From Hyphomicrobiales bacterium (GTDB lineage: Bacteria; Pseudomonadota; Alphaproteobacteria; Rhizobiales; JAJFHB01): a stretch of DNA of 64,000 bases. Positions 30,275 through 38,141 of the stretch are shown one piece after another (position 1 is the stretch's first letter; every line of letters starts with the position of its first letter). The DNA lies in the NCBI GenBank assembly GCA_021775755.1, contig JAJFHE010000024.1, positions 62,001-126,000 on the forward strand, given 5' to 3'. Under the pieces are notes generated by a model. The model was not told the origin of the DNA, ran no database searches, and worked only from the letters and a program-made list of their open reading frames with translations. Both the position numbers and the translations under genes were made by a program.

Positions 30275-31432
30275 TTAGTGTGCGGAGATTATGCCCTTGC
30301 CTTCGAGGCCGGGAATGCGCGCCGGGCCGAGATCGGCTTCGCTGACCCCAAGTGCCGCAATATCTTCCGGTATCGCATTGCCTGAGGCGAGCGCCGCACT
30401 GACGCGTCCCATGCCCATGGACGTCTCGATGCCGTAGCCGCCCTGCGCGGCGCACCAGAAGAACCCCTCGACGTCCGGGTCGTAACCGACGACCGGCACC
30501 CGGTCGGCAACGAAGCTGCGCAGGCCCGCCCATGAGCGCTGCAGGCGTTCGATCTTCATGGTGGTGCCGCGCTCGATGCGATCAATGGTGAGCGCGATAT
30601 CGAGTTCCTCGGGCTGCGCATCCTGGGGCTCGCTCGGCGTTTCGTCGGCGAGCGAACCCAATACCGTGCCGGCGTCGACCTTGAAGTACCAGTCTTCTTC
30701 CGTGTCGATGACCACCGGCCAGGCATCGTCAACGGCGACATTGGGCGGCACGAAGGCAATGGCGGTGCGGCGCATTGGCTGTATGTCGATTTTGCGCGCG
30801 CCAATTCGCTCCGCGACCACATCGGCCCAGGCGCCAGCGGCGTTGATGACGACGGGTGCTGCAAAAGTGCCCGCCGGTGTCGTGACGTGCCATTTGCCGT
30901 TCTTGCGTTCAAATGCCGTGGCTTCGCCGCTCACGATCAACTGACCGCCGTTGCGGCGCAGACCCCGGATGTAGCCCTGGTGGATGGCGCTGACATCGAG
31001 GGCCAAAGCTGTCGGATCAAGGAATGCCGCCTCGACATAATCGGGCCGCAGCACTGGTATCCGCTCCACCGCTTCCTTGCCGGAGATCAGATGAATGCCC
31101 GGCGAAAGCTCCCGAGCGGCGGCAAGTGCGGCCTGAAGATGGTGCATCTGGTCATCGCGCGCGACAATGAACAGGCCTTGCGGCCGCGACAGGGGAACTT
31201 CGGAAAAGCTCTCCGGCGTTTCAGTGAAAAACTCAAAGCCCGATATCGCCAGCGCCCGCACCGTCTTCGGCCCGTAGGCCTCCGTGTAAACGGCAATGGA
31301 ACGCCCCGTGGTGTGATAACCGGGCTGGTCTTCCATCTCCAGCACGACAACGGAGTGGCGCTCAGACAGCCAGTTGGCACAGGAAGTGCCACCGATACCG
31401 GCACCGATAATGAGGAAATCGCACTCGGTCAT
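30275..31432 (-). CDS. FAD-dependent oxidoreductase (DAO/DadA-like)
   Basis: Protein of 385 aa from the chosen ATG, which follows a GATCCGGG sequence. The FAD Rossmann motif is DFLIIGAGIGGTSCANWLSE, and the C-terminal FFWCAAQGGYGIETSMGMGR closes the FAD site. It belongs to the D-amino-acid oxidase/glycine oxidase-like group (DAO fold), which oxidises amines or hydroxyacids. It is not closely like DadA or SoxB in its substrate loop, so no symbol is given. Downstream genes on this strand are far away. Confidence 0.85.
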   Translation of the reverse strand: MTECDFLIIGAGIGGTSCANWLSERHSVVVLEMEDQPGYHTTGRSIAVYTEAYGPKTVRALAISGFEFFTETPESFSEVPLSRPQGLFIVARDDQMHHLQAALAAARELSPGIHLISGKEAVERIPVLRPDYVEAAFLDPTALALDVSAIHQGYIRGLRRNGGQLIVSGEATAFERKNGKWHVTTPAGTFAAPVVINAAGAWADVVAERIGARKIDIQPMRRTAIAFVPPNVAVDDAWPVVIDTEEDWYFKVDAGTVLGSLADETPSEPQDAQPEELDIALTIDRIERGTTMKIERLQRSWAGLRSFVADRVPVVGYDPDVEGFFWCAAQGGYGIETSMGMGRVSAALASGNAIPEDIAALGVSEADLGPARIPGLEGKGIISAH

Positions 31433-31515
31433 GCCCGGATCCTGCATTGGGTGATGCAGAATCACAATAGGGCACGATCAGCCTTTGGAAAATCTGTTTG
31501 ATGAAGAGTTGAAAC

Positions 31516-35077: not shown

Positions 35078-35617
35078 ATGTCGGTCGCCGAAACCATCGA
35101 GACGCCACGTCTTAACTTGCGCCCCCACACGGATGGAGATGCGGACGACATATATGCGTATGCTTCGGACCCGGAATGGGGCAAGTTCCTGCCAGTCCCT
35201 GAGCCTTACCTGCAAGAGCACGCAGTTGAGCACGTCGAGAAAATCCTGAGTAGGGACCGAGAGCAGCATCCAACACGGGCGGTTTGTATCGGCCCTCAAG
35301 TTGTCGGCGATGTAAATATGAGGTTCTTTGCCGACCATCGTATTGCAGAGATCGGCTACGGGCTGTCTCGATCCTATTGGGGGCGAGGGATCATGGTCGA
35401 AGCGGTGAACGCGATCATCAGTTCCGCATTCGATTGCTACACGCAGTTAGTGCGTGTGCGGGCGCGCGCCAACGCCGAGAACCTTGGGTCGCGCAGAGTG
35501 ATGGAAAAGCTCGGCATGAGCCTTGAGGGGCAGTTACGCCAAGACAGCTTCGAGTGCGGAGAGCTGCATGATGAAGTTGTCTACGGGCTCCTTCGTAATG
35601 AATGGCATGGAATCTAG
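35078..35617 (+). CDS. GNAT family N-acetyltransferase, RimJ/RimL type
   Basis: Protein of 179 aa. Recognised by ETPRLNLRPHTDGDADDIYA at the N-terminus, IAEIGYGLSRSYWGRGIMVE with the acetyl-CoA-binding R-G-x-G/I turn, and NLGSRRVMEKLGMSLEGQLR near the C-terminus, as in RimJ/RimL-type enzymes that acetylate amino groups of proteins or small molecules. Its lower GC and position between repeats point to recent acquisition. Substrate unknown. Confidence 0.88.
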   Translation: MSVAETIETPRLNLRPHTDGDADDIYAYASDPEWGKFLPVPEPYLQEHAVEHVEKILSRDREQHPTRAVCIGPQVVGDVNMRFFADHRIAEIGYGLSRSYWGRGIMVEAVNAIISSAFDCYTQLVRVRARANAENLGSRRVMEKLGMSLEGQLRQDSFECGELHDEVVYGLLRNEWHGI

Positions 35618-35971
35618 TCATCGACCGGTAGCCGTATTCGGTCATTCGAAACAATCTCGGCGAAGTCCATTATGGGCCGTACTCGGTCCTTGCTACAAAT
35701 CGGAGTTTAACAATGTCAAAGAGCAAAATAGGGGCAGTTTAGGCACTGTTCTCTACGGGGTCGATCTGCAGGTCGGCAAGCACCACAACATAGTATCAGC
35801 CGAACAGTTTCCCAATGTTTGGAGCGCAATCACGTCGGAAACAACTGCAGAGGTAATTGACGACGAACTCATCAAACAGGCTCCAGCTTTTCATACGGAC
35901 ATTCCGCTGTTCCGGTACCGCCGGATCGCCGTTAGACTTGGCTGGATGGAATCACGTGAAGGGCATGAGGC
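35618..35971. pseudogene. possible gene remnant between GNAT and RidA genes
   Basis: About 354 bases without a convincing gene. One plus-strand frame, open to 35975, reads YGVDLQVGKHHNIVSAEQFP and onward with coding-like character, but it has no start of its own outside the GNAT gene and matches no family I know. A nearby ATG in another frame (MSKSKIGAV) stops after nine codons. I read this as decayed coding sequence inside the acquired islet. The right copy of the CCGGATCGCC repeat lies at 35921-35940. Confidence 0.35.
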
Positions 35972-37192
35972 ATGACGCAATACTGGCGCTGGCCGCTCGG
36001 CGGTGTGCAGCAATTGAGTGGTACGGCAGGTCCCCTCACCTTCGTTGGCGGCGCGGGTGATTTCGACGCGGCGGGCAACATCCGCCATCCTGGCGATCTC
36101 GACGCCCAGATCATAGGCGCGGTTGAAAACGTCGCCATCGCGCTTGCCGGCGAAAGCGCTGCGTTGTCGGACGTCGTCCGGATCAAGGCGCATTTCACCG
36201 CAGACGTCGATGACTGGCACGTCATTTCAAGGCTTGCCGCGCTGTTCCCCGACGAGCCGATGCCGGCCATCTCTACCGTCCCCGACCCGTTGCAGCCGTT
36301 CGACAGCCAGCTGGTGCAGATCCAGGCGATTGCGCAACGCGGATGGCGCGACCTTGAAGATATCCGTGTCAGCCGGCGTCCGGTGCCGCCGGACTGGCAG
36401 GAACGATTCGGCGGCAGGCCGGTGACCGGCGGCCTGCGGGCCGGCGAGTTTATCGCCGTCTCCAACCGAACAGCCGAAACCGCAGGCGGCGCTATCGAAT
36501 CGCCCTATGACGACGTCGCCCAAAGCCACGCCATCATGCATATGCACCGCGATACGCTTGCCGAACTTGGCGCCGGATTTCAAGACGCAGTCAAAATGGA
36601 AGGCTATTATTTCGGCACGACGCGCGAAGAGTGGGCGCCGCTCGCCAAGGCACGGGCGAGCCATTTCGCAGAGCCCGGCCCCGTCGCCACCGTGGTTCCC
36701 TGCCACCGGCTCAACCCGCAAAACGCCGCGACCAAGATTGAAGTTATGGCGATGCGCGAGGAATGGAACGGTTTCGACAAATACATACCGCGCATCGACT
36801 GGTGGCCGAAACGGGTCTGGGACTGGCAGATCCCTCTGCCCTACCGCCAGGCGATCTGTCTTCGCGACATGATCTGGCTCGGCGGCCAGGTACCCTCAGA
36901 ACCGTATTCCAACACGTCGGCACCAATGTACCCGGAAGACCTCGTGGCCCAGACACGTCTGGTCATGTCCTATCTGGAAGACCTCCTGCGCGGCTACGAC
37001 CGCTCTACCGCCGACCTAAAACTGATGGTCTGCTATTTCACCTGCCCCGACGGTCTGGAAACCACAAAGCTGTTCCTCGACACCGTGTCGGAGATGATCG
37101 GCGGGGCGCTGCCGCCAACAACGCTTGTGCCCAAGCCTGGAATGCACACCAAATACGGCACGGTGGAAATCTGGGGCGTGGCGCAGGCGTGA
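35972..37192 (+). CDS. protein with three fused RidA-like domains
   Basis: Protein of 406 aa. Three RidA/YjgF-type modules follow each other: about residues 8-124 (ending DSQLVQIQAIAQ), 150-262 (ending KIEVMAMREEW) and 285-406 (ending GTVEIWGVAQA). Each has the strand-helix order of the family, for example FVGGAGDFDAAGNIRHPGDL, FIAVSNRTAETAGG and IWLGGQVPSEPYS. RidA normally works as a homotrimer, so this chain could be a single-chain trimer. The catalytic Arg of classical RidA deaminases is not seen at the expected places (STVPDP, VPCHRL, LVPKPG), so the role may differ. Confidence 0.75.
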   Translation: MTQYWRWPLGGVQQLSGTAGPLTFVGGAGDFDAAGNIRHPGDLDAQIIGAVENVAIALAGESAALSDVVRIKAHFTADVDDWHVISRLAALFPDEPMPAISTVPDPLQPFDSQLVQIQAIAQRGWRDLEDIRVSRRPVPPDWQERFGGRPVTGGLRAGEFIAVSNRTAETAGGAIESPYDDVAQSHAIMHMHRDTLAELGAGFQDAVKMEGYYFGTTREEWAPLAKARASHFAEPGPVATVVPCHRLNPQNAATKIEVMAMREEWNGFDKYIPRIDWWPKRVWDWQIPLPYRQAICLRDMIWLGGQVPSEPYSNTSAPMYPEDLVAQTRLVMSYLEDLLRGYDRSTADLKLMVCYFTCPDGLETTKLFLDTVSEMIGGALPPTTLVPKPGMHTKYGTVEIWGVAQA

Positions 37193-37202
37193 CAGATCGC
37201 GT

Positions 37203-38141
37203 TCAGAGCAGTGCCGCAATGTGTGCCGTCAGCTCAGGCGTACGCAAATAGCCGTAGGACTTGTGGTGATTGCGGTGCTTTCCGGCACCAGGCCTCACGT
37301 AGTCGTTCGACACCAGATCGTCGTGCACCACAACGCCGCGTGCATTGGCTTCGAAGTCATCGCTGAGATGCAGATCGAGTGCCACCGGATCGGCGCGGTC
37401 GGCAAAGTTCGTCCACGAGCCGGAGACGACTGTCGGTGTGCGCAATGCAGCACCCGGACGCTTCTTGCGTTCCTCCTCGATGTTGAGCTTGACATGCGGC
37501 AGTCCGAGCGGCGCGCCGATGGTGACGAAATGCGCGATGTCGAACTTGTCCGGCCGCATGCCGATGTTACGCAACACGTCGTAGGCAATGATCGAGCCCA
37601 TTGAGTGACTGATCAGCAATGTGTTGCGTCCGCGTGCCATCTCAAGTTTGCGCTCCAGGTCGTTCATCAGCACCTGGCGCGCAACTTCCATCTCGCCACT
37701 GACAGGATCTTTGAGCTTGCGTTTTTCGTCATAGTAGAAATCGAGATCCTTCAGGGTCTTTTCGAGCACCCAGTTGGCAACGAAATTGACGCTGAGATTG
37801 GACTTTACCAGATCAAGCGCTTTACCGCCGGTGCCTAACAGGACACGACGCGCTTCGTCTTTCCAGCCGTCCTTGTAGAGCTTGAGCGCTCCGTCGGGGG
37901 CCTTGCGGTATGGCTCATTGTTGTAAAGCTTGTCGAACTTGAATGCCGAATTTCGGTGCAAGGGATGGAGATAGAGCAGATCCGCCCAGTAGACCAACTC
38001 GAAGTCGAAATCAGGATTGGCAATCCCGGCGGTCTTCGACAGACCTTCGACAATCGCGTCGTGCCACCACTTTTTCAGAGTTTCCTCAGGCGGCTTGTTG
38101 GCGAGACCGTGAATCCCGACAATGAGAAGTTTTTCACTCAT
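37203..38141 (-). CDS. alpha/beta hydrolase fold protein
   Basis: Protein of 312 aa. The oxyanion start HGLANKP and the nucleophile elbow SHSMGSIIAYDVLR (G/S-x-S-x-G type) mark a lipase/esterase-like hydrolase. Candidate Asp is in DRADPVALD and His in HHKSYGYLR near the end. The long insert between residues 60 and 150 is rich in Lys and Asp and is not known to me. It is the downstream partner of a small membrane-anchored gene 98 bases away. Substrate unknown. Confidence 0.75.
   Translation of the reverse strand: MSEKLLIVGIHGLANKPPEETLKKWWHDAIVEGLSKTAGIANPDFDFELVYWADLLYLHPLHRNSAFKFDKLYNNEPYRKAPDGALKLYKDGWKDEARRVLLGTGGKALDLVKSNLSVNFVANWVLEKTLKDLDFYYDEKRKLKDPVSGEMEVARQVLMNDLERKLEMARGRNTLLISHSMGSIIAYDVLRNIGMRPDKFDIAHFVTIGAPLGLPHVKLNIEEERKKRPGAALRTPTVVSGSWTNFADRADPVALDLHLSDDFEANARGVVVHDDLVSNDYVRPGAGKHRNHHKSYGYLRTPELTAHIAALL

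Follow-up and report, generated by a model that had tools for sequence, protein, structure and literature searches.

A three-domain Rid protein without the catalytic arginine and its uncommon alphaproteobacterial branch

The window, that is, the whole 64,000-nucleotide stretch of a Hyphomicrobiales genome analyzed here, encodes a 406-amino-acid protein in which three Rid domains follow one another in a single chain, each with another residue at the position of the catalytic arginine of RidA (Table 1). We see roughly even prospects for the proposal that it is a single-chain 3x-Rid from an uncommon alphaproteobacterial branch, folding as a pseudo-trimer with non-equivalent clefts and serving an arginine-independent role in nitrogen catabolism. 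The idea of a covalently linked trimer is already known, since Niehaus et al. (2015) named '3x-RidA' proteins, exemplified by EF_0115, and described them as 'presumably covalently linked trimer units' (PMC4433059). What appears to be new here, beyond a three-domain design known since 2015, are three copies that have drifted apart, all without the catalytic arginine. No description of an arginine-less three-domain branch with position-specific pockets was found among the listed titles and abstract openings of open-licence papers, and the novelty of the branch should be read with caution because the search was confined to such literature.

Domain architecture and pocket residues

The first-pass annotation had proposed three Rid modules in tandem, and both profile searches and structure prediction returned three rather than two. 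PF01042 matched the protein three times (whole protein E 1.8e-20, 73.6 bits), and the AlphaFold model of the whole chain, built from an alignment (A1) with nine relatives, contains three beta-beta-alpha-beta-alpha-beta-beta units; the same element order in each third, together with the Pfam matches, shows that the three Rid domains are real. Scored in isolation, D1 (29.1 bits) and D2 (28.7 bits) exceeded the curated PF01042 cut-off of 27.3, and D3 by itself (24.5 bits) fell below it. By its sequence, the protein can be placed in the Rid / YjgF-YER057c-UK114 superfamily, with its PF01042 match above the curated cut-off. It would probably fall outside the RidA subfamily, which is defined by Arg105 and the TIGR00004 cut-off, as it has no Arg105 and reached 47.6 bits over three stretches against a cut-off of 106.25; two paralogues in its own genome, L024 (114.2 bits) and L025 (111.2 bits), passed TIGR00004 as whole proteins.

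Table 1. Features of the three-domain Rid gene and its neighbors in the window. Pocket positions follow TdcF numbering and were assigned by sequence alignment, not from coordinates.
Feature	Positions	Strand	Basis or remark	Secondary-structure elements in the model	Residue at pocket position (TdcF residue in brackets)
Three-domain Rid protein, 406 aa + stop	35972..37192	+	Open frame matched three times by PF01042 and colinear with eight relatives		
D1, residues 1-129 (about)	35972..36358	+	Pfam, model, alignment	E14-19 E22-28 H43-60 E68-75 H81-89 E99-104 E115-122	Q13 (Y17), G27 (G31), N53 (N56), S86 (N88), I100 (R105), F110 (P114), Q116 (E120)
D2, residues 130-272 (about)	36359..36787	+	Pfam, model, alignment	E151-157 E160-163 H181-198 E206-214 H218-229 E239-244 E254-261	V151 (Y17), N165 (G31), M191 (N56), A225 (N88), A239 (R105), P249 (P114), K255 (E120)
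D3, residues 273-406 (about)	36788..37189	+	Pfam, model, alignment	E293-297 E300-306 H321-340 E349-356 H361-376 E383-387 E398-405	Y291 (Y17), G305 (G31), Y334 (N56), L369 (N88), T383 (R105), T393 (P114), E399 (E120)
WPKRVWDW segment, residues 278-285	36803..36826	+	Opens D3; Trp-rich branch signature		
DAO-family FAD-dependent oxidoreductase gene	30275..31465	-	PF01266, 181 bits		
Acetyltransferase gene	35078..35617				
150-aa open frame	35523..35975	+			
ORF faced by the Rid gene	37203..38141		No Pfam match at 1e-5		

The gene is real, judging from eight full-length relatives (67-78% identity), which align with it without gaps over 406 columns. Compared with the closest relative, L016, dN was 0.154 and dS, which is near saturation, was 2.12; dN was lowest in D3 (0.099; D1 0.213, D2 0.154). 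Residues W278, P279, W283, D284, and W285, within the segment opening D3, are invariant in 19 sequences. Counted by eye, the WDW motif is present in 29 of 30 D3 domains and in none of 18 single Rids as trimmed, and 10 of the 16 family B proteins also open D1 with HWxW.

Seven pocket residues are conserved in the family, namely Tyr17, Gly31, Asn56, Asn88, Arg105, Pro114, and Glu120 (passages of PMC1884159). D1 retains the glycine (G27) and the first asparagine (N53), D2 the proline (P249), and D3 the tyrosine, glycine, and glutamate (Y291, G305, E399). The absence of the classical catalytic arginine, noted earlier, was confirmed in all three domains and extends to the relatives: it occurs in none of 90 domains from 30 three-domain proteins, comprising 14 close (family A) and 16 distant (family B) members, and is carried by 8 of 18 single-domain Rids. 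At this position D3 of family B always has Ser or Thr (16/16), and Thr is present in D3 of the protein studied here.

The residue at the Glu120 position is set by the domain. In D1 it is Gln in all 14 family A proteins and Glu in 15 of 16 family B proteins; in D2 it is Lys in 14/14 of family A and Lys or Arg in 14/16 of family B (28/30 overall); in D3 it is Glu in 14/14 and 15/16, respectively (29/30 overall). Single-domain Rids have Glu in 17 of 18 cases, the remaining one being a gap. Tyr, Gly, and Glu occur together in D3 of every family A member (14/14). As far as alignment can tell, pocket residues are thus conserved according to domain position, which bears out the expected non-equivalence of the three domains at the level of these residues.

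Conservation of Gly31 is reportedly steric, with a side chain there expected to clash with Glu120 in particular (PMC1884159, in part), and in D2 of family A both positions are replaced jointly, Gly31 by Asn in 11 of 14 proteins and Glu120 by Lys in all 14. In TdcF, according to the passages describing it, Glu120 on one side of the cleft bonds residue 107 of the neighboring subunit across the interface; from these and passages on AmnE, Tyr17, Gly31, and Glu120 would lie on one side of the cleft. The retention of Glu120 in D3 and the joint change of Gly31 and Glu120 in D2 therefore suggest that the clefts, if formed, would be non-equivalent. Equating the D2 lysine with Lys135 of AmnE was rejected, as the alignment places the AmnE lysine at the Glu122 position, not at Glu120.

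Compared by description, the protein resembles 3x-RidA in that a single chain comprises three tandem Rid domains, but, unlike 3x-RidA, which is called a RidA subset, it has no Arg105 in any domain (PMC4433059, in part). With Rid4-Rid7, in which the arginine position is occupied by Trp (Rid4 and Rid7) or is variable (Rid5 and Rid6), it shares the loss of Arg and, in D3, the retention of Glu; unlike Rid4-Rid7, which keep Glu and for which the passages drawn on mention no fusion, its D2 and the D1 of family A lack Glu120 (PMC4433059).

Relatives, descent, and genomic surroundings

Further three-domain Rid proteins, whose search had been suggested in the first-pass annotation, were found as family A and family B relatives in Alphaproteobacteria and on plasmids. 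A full-length relative at 66% identity or more was present in 4 of 61 genomes (own and related, own included). Since up to four candidates per genome were scored in the two broader surveys, their counts are lower bounds: at least 9 of 385 alphaproteobacterial genomes matched at E 1e-20 or better, eight of them through family A (the own gene itself, or proteins at 63-71% identity) and one through the more distant family B only, and at least one match at 1e-20, in the own genome, was recorded in a phylum-wide set of 398 genomes. A scan of genome contigs yielded eight loci at 68-78% identity, which overlap the relatives from these surveys (L016 scores the same as L002). Four rhizobial plasmid records carry proteins of 58-62% identity, three of them annotated as RidA family protein. 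The source assembly (5.47 Mb) contains 27 Rid matches, and in a set of 14 genomes selected because they had hits, as many as five distinct proteins of one genome matched the family profile below 1e-50.

Three plasmid matches (H8, H9, H17), to which several segments of the query had aligned, were rejected as three-domain proteins because their genes, at 140-151 codons, are too short. In L069, D1 is preceded in frame by about 600 residues; at 1e-5 Pfam recognized nothing but Rid in this protein, and the added stretch was taken as a chance open frame. A further Rid type, with two Pfam Rid stretches flanking an unrecognized stretch, was observed in L026 (5646-7493) and L032 (17357-18532).

A midpoint-rooted bootstrap consensus tree was built from 114 domains, 96 from fused proteins and 18 single, five of the latter from Escherichia coli. 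Close family A relatives (L017, L019, L021, L022, L066, L068, L070), L026, the second copy in L032, and L009 were left out, as were three of 16 single-Rid regions (L104, L106, L107), which did not match the domain model; six domains of L028 and L090 were kept in the tree and excluded from the family A and B counts. Fused and single domains were separated with a support of 99, and all 30 D1 domains were united with a support of 93. D1, D2, and D3 of family A each formed a group with a support of 100, and D3 of family B one with 97. The grouping of all D2 domains was weak (56) and included three extra rows; D1 and D2 of family B formed no clades in this tree, and D3 of family A was not joined with D3 of family B. 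Despite these irregularities in D2 and D3, a single old triplication followed by specialization would be the simplest reading of the tree.

In the window, the Rid gene is preceded by a polyprenyl synthetase gene and the acetyltransferase gene, and faces the downstream ORF. A 150-amino-acid open frame overlaps the acetyltransferase gene and enters the Rid gene by 4 bases. In L016, the acetyltransferase gene and the facing ORF seem absent beside the Rid gene, with 55 bases between the end of the synthetase frame and the start of the Rid gene, so neither of the nearer neighbors is fixed. The DAO-family gene, encoded on the opposite strand, is 4.5 kb upstream of the Rid gene, a proximity that may be due to chance given 42 DAO matches in the source genome.

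The comparison of gene context, also suggested earlier, covered 37 loci and revealed no conserved operon among 13 neighbor families within 5 kb (less at contig ends). As these families were picked from genes present at the same loci, and several matches were weak (25-46% identity), the counts are descriptive. In family A, MlrC was found at 4 of 20 loci and similarity to an ABC ATPase at 5 of 20; in four genomes of one taxonomic family (L065-L068), the three-domain Rid gene overlaps or abuts an MlrC/M81 metallopeptidase gene, identified by Pfam in L065 and by similarity in the other three. In family B, a DAO-family oxidase gene is directly adjacent at 2 of 17 loci. Among paralogues in the own genome, L024 is overlapped by a DAO-family oxidase frame, L025 has M20 peptidase, aminotransferase, SDR, arginase-family, Rid, and amidase genes as neighbors, and L026 has DAO, aminotransferase, amidase, and Rid genes. 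Plasmid relatives are accompanied by aminotransferase and aldehyde dehydrogenase genes, or by amino-acid ABC transporter and alpha-hydroxy acid oxidase genes. The theme of these neighborhoods, in which no partner is conserved, appears to be the catabolism of nitrogen compounds.

A separate cluster was observed on the Mesorhizobium plasmid L090 (2610-10754), where a divergent three-domain Rid gene lies with Xaa-Pro peptidase, amino-acid ABC transporter, and desuccinylase/aspartoacylase-like genes, and a threonine/serine dehydratase gene is found 6 kb from the Rid gene. We take this gene set to resemble that of ectoine catabolism.

Domain packing and possible function

One of five whole-chain models was fair (mean pLDDT 67.4; the other four 46.6-52.7), with a pTM of 0.73 and low confidence at the entry to D3 (residues 263-298). 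The top Foldseek matches were the chorismatases 5a3k, 5ag3, and 4bps, with single Rids mixed with Toblerone enzymes further down. Against 5ag3_A, 225 residues (11-261) were aligned by VIA (Z 18.9, rmsd 3.0), compared with 106-132 residues for single Rids in the same table, indicating that D1 and D2 jointly match the chorismatase arrangement. Chorismatase imitates part of the Rid trimer. The model supports packing of D1 and D2 as in chorismatase; the likeness is one of domain arrangement, and the aligned part across the three chorismatases covers residues 9-261 only, at 12-14% identity.

The protein also recalls the Toblerone fold of AtzD and barbiturase, for which a single chain derived from concatenated YjgF-type monomers has been proposed, but AtzD, unlike the clefts considered here, has its active site in a central barrel (PMC3758960, in part), and its structure (4bvq_A) superposed poorly (TMq 0.35, rmsd 9.0). 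The single-chain trimer suggested at first pass is supported for its D1-D2 half, through the joint chorismatase superposition; for its D3 half it is a possibility, with a whole-chain model that is weak at residues 263-298 and a prediction of D2-D3 (residues 124-406) that was unusable for the interface (mean pLDDT 42.7, pTM 0.42). A closed single-chain pseudo-trimer is nevertheless plausible.

In the proposal favored here, a triplication long ago would have brought three Rid domains into one chain, which would fold as a pseudo-trimer with three clefts, none equivalent to another. The cleft built on D3 would be the most likely working pocket, because only D3 keeps Y291, G305, and E399 together and opens with WPxRVWDW; the rebuilt half-site of D2 (V151, N165, K255) may accommodate an acidic group or play a structural role. 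The protein would carry out C-N bond chemistry on a nitrogenous metabolite, or bind one, in amino-acid, amine, or peptide catabolism without the arginine of RidA, and presumably not by classical arginine-dependent imine hydrolysis. A bolder version is possible, if rather unlikely: a natural single-chain hetero-trimer in which duplication allowed the D3 cleft (Y291, E399, WDW) to be kept and a second one, on D2 (K255, N165), to be rebuilt so as to perform a new reaction independent of arginine; the paralogues, up to five in a genome, would then serve different nitrogen compounds.

It is unlikely that the protein is a non-catalytic ligand-binding or scaffold protein, holding a metabolite or partner without turnover. 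The loss of Arg105 from all 90 domains, and of Glu120 from two of the three family A domains, would suit such a role, as would the arginine-less Rid4-7 proteins, whose functions are called 'completely unknown' (PMC4433059, in part); the Tyr, Gly, and Glu retained in D3 throughout family A and the catabolic enzyme genes beside paralogues point instead to an enzymatic step. Even less probable, in our judgment, is a RidA-type imine/enamine deaminase that is merely fused and in which another residue substitutes for arginine. Arg105 is described as essential for imine hydrolysis in passages of PMC4433059, and Asn88, which may orient it (PMC1884159, in part), is replaced in all three domains here. 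Such a deaminase would be compatible with membership of the Rid superfamily, with the DAO-family oxidase, a likely imine producer, adjacent at two family B loci, with the dehydratase gene near the Mesorhizobium relative, and with Ser/Thr at the Arg105 position of D3, given that Ser replaces Arg in about 10% of RidA proteins (PMC4433059, in part). Most doubtful is a chain that does not close, with D3 pairing with another chain or swapping into a higher oligomer, as the failed D2-D3 fragment and the poor fit of the whole chain to Toblerone enzymes (TMq 0.31-0.35, rmsd 9.0-9.6) might suggest, against the chorismatase-like packing of D1 and D2, the pTM of the whole model, and the precedents of Rid trimers and AtzD.

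In a homotrimeric Rid, the three clefts are identical, and fusing the trimer lets them specialize. In the paralogues, domain position determines how Glu120 has changed, so which cleft works could be tested directly. Against the background of Rid4-7, the branch could show what Rid domains without the arginine do.
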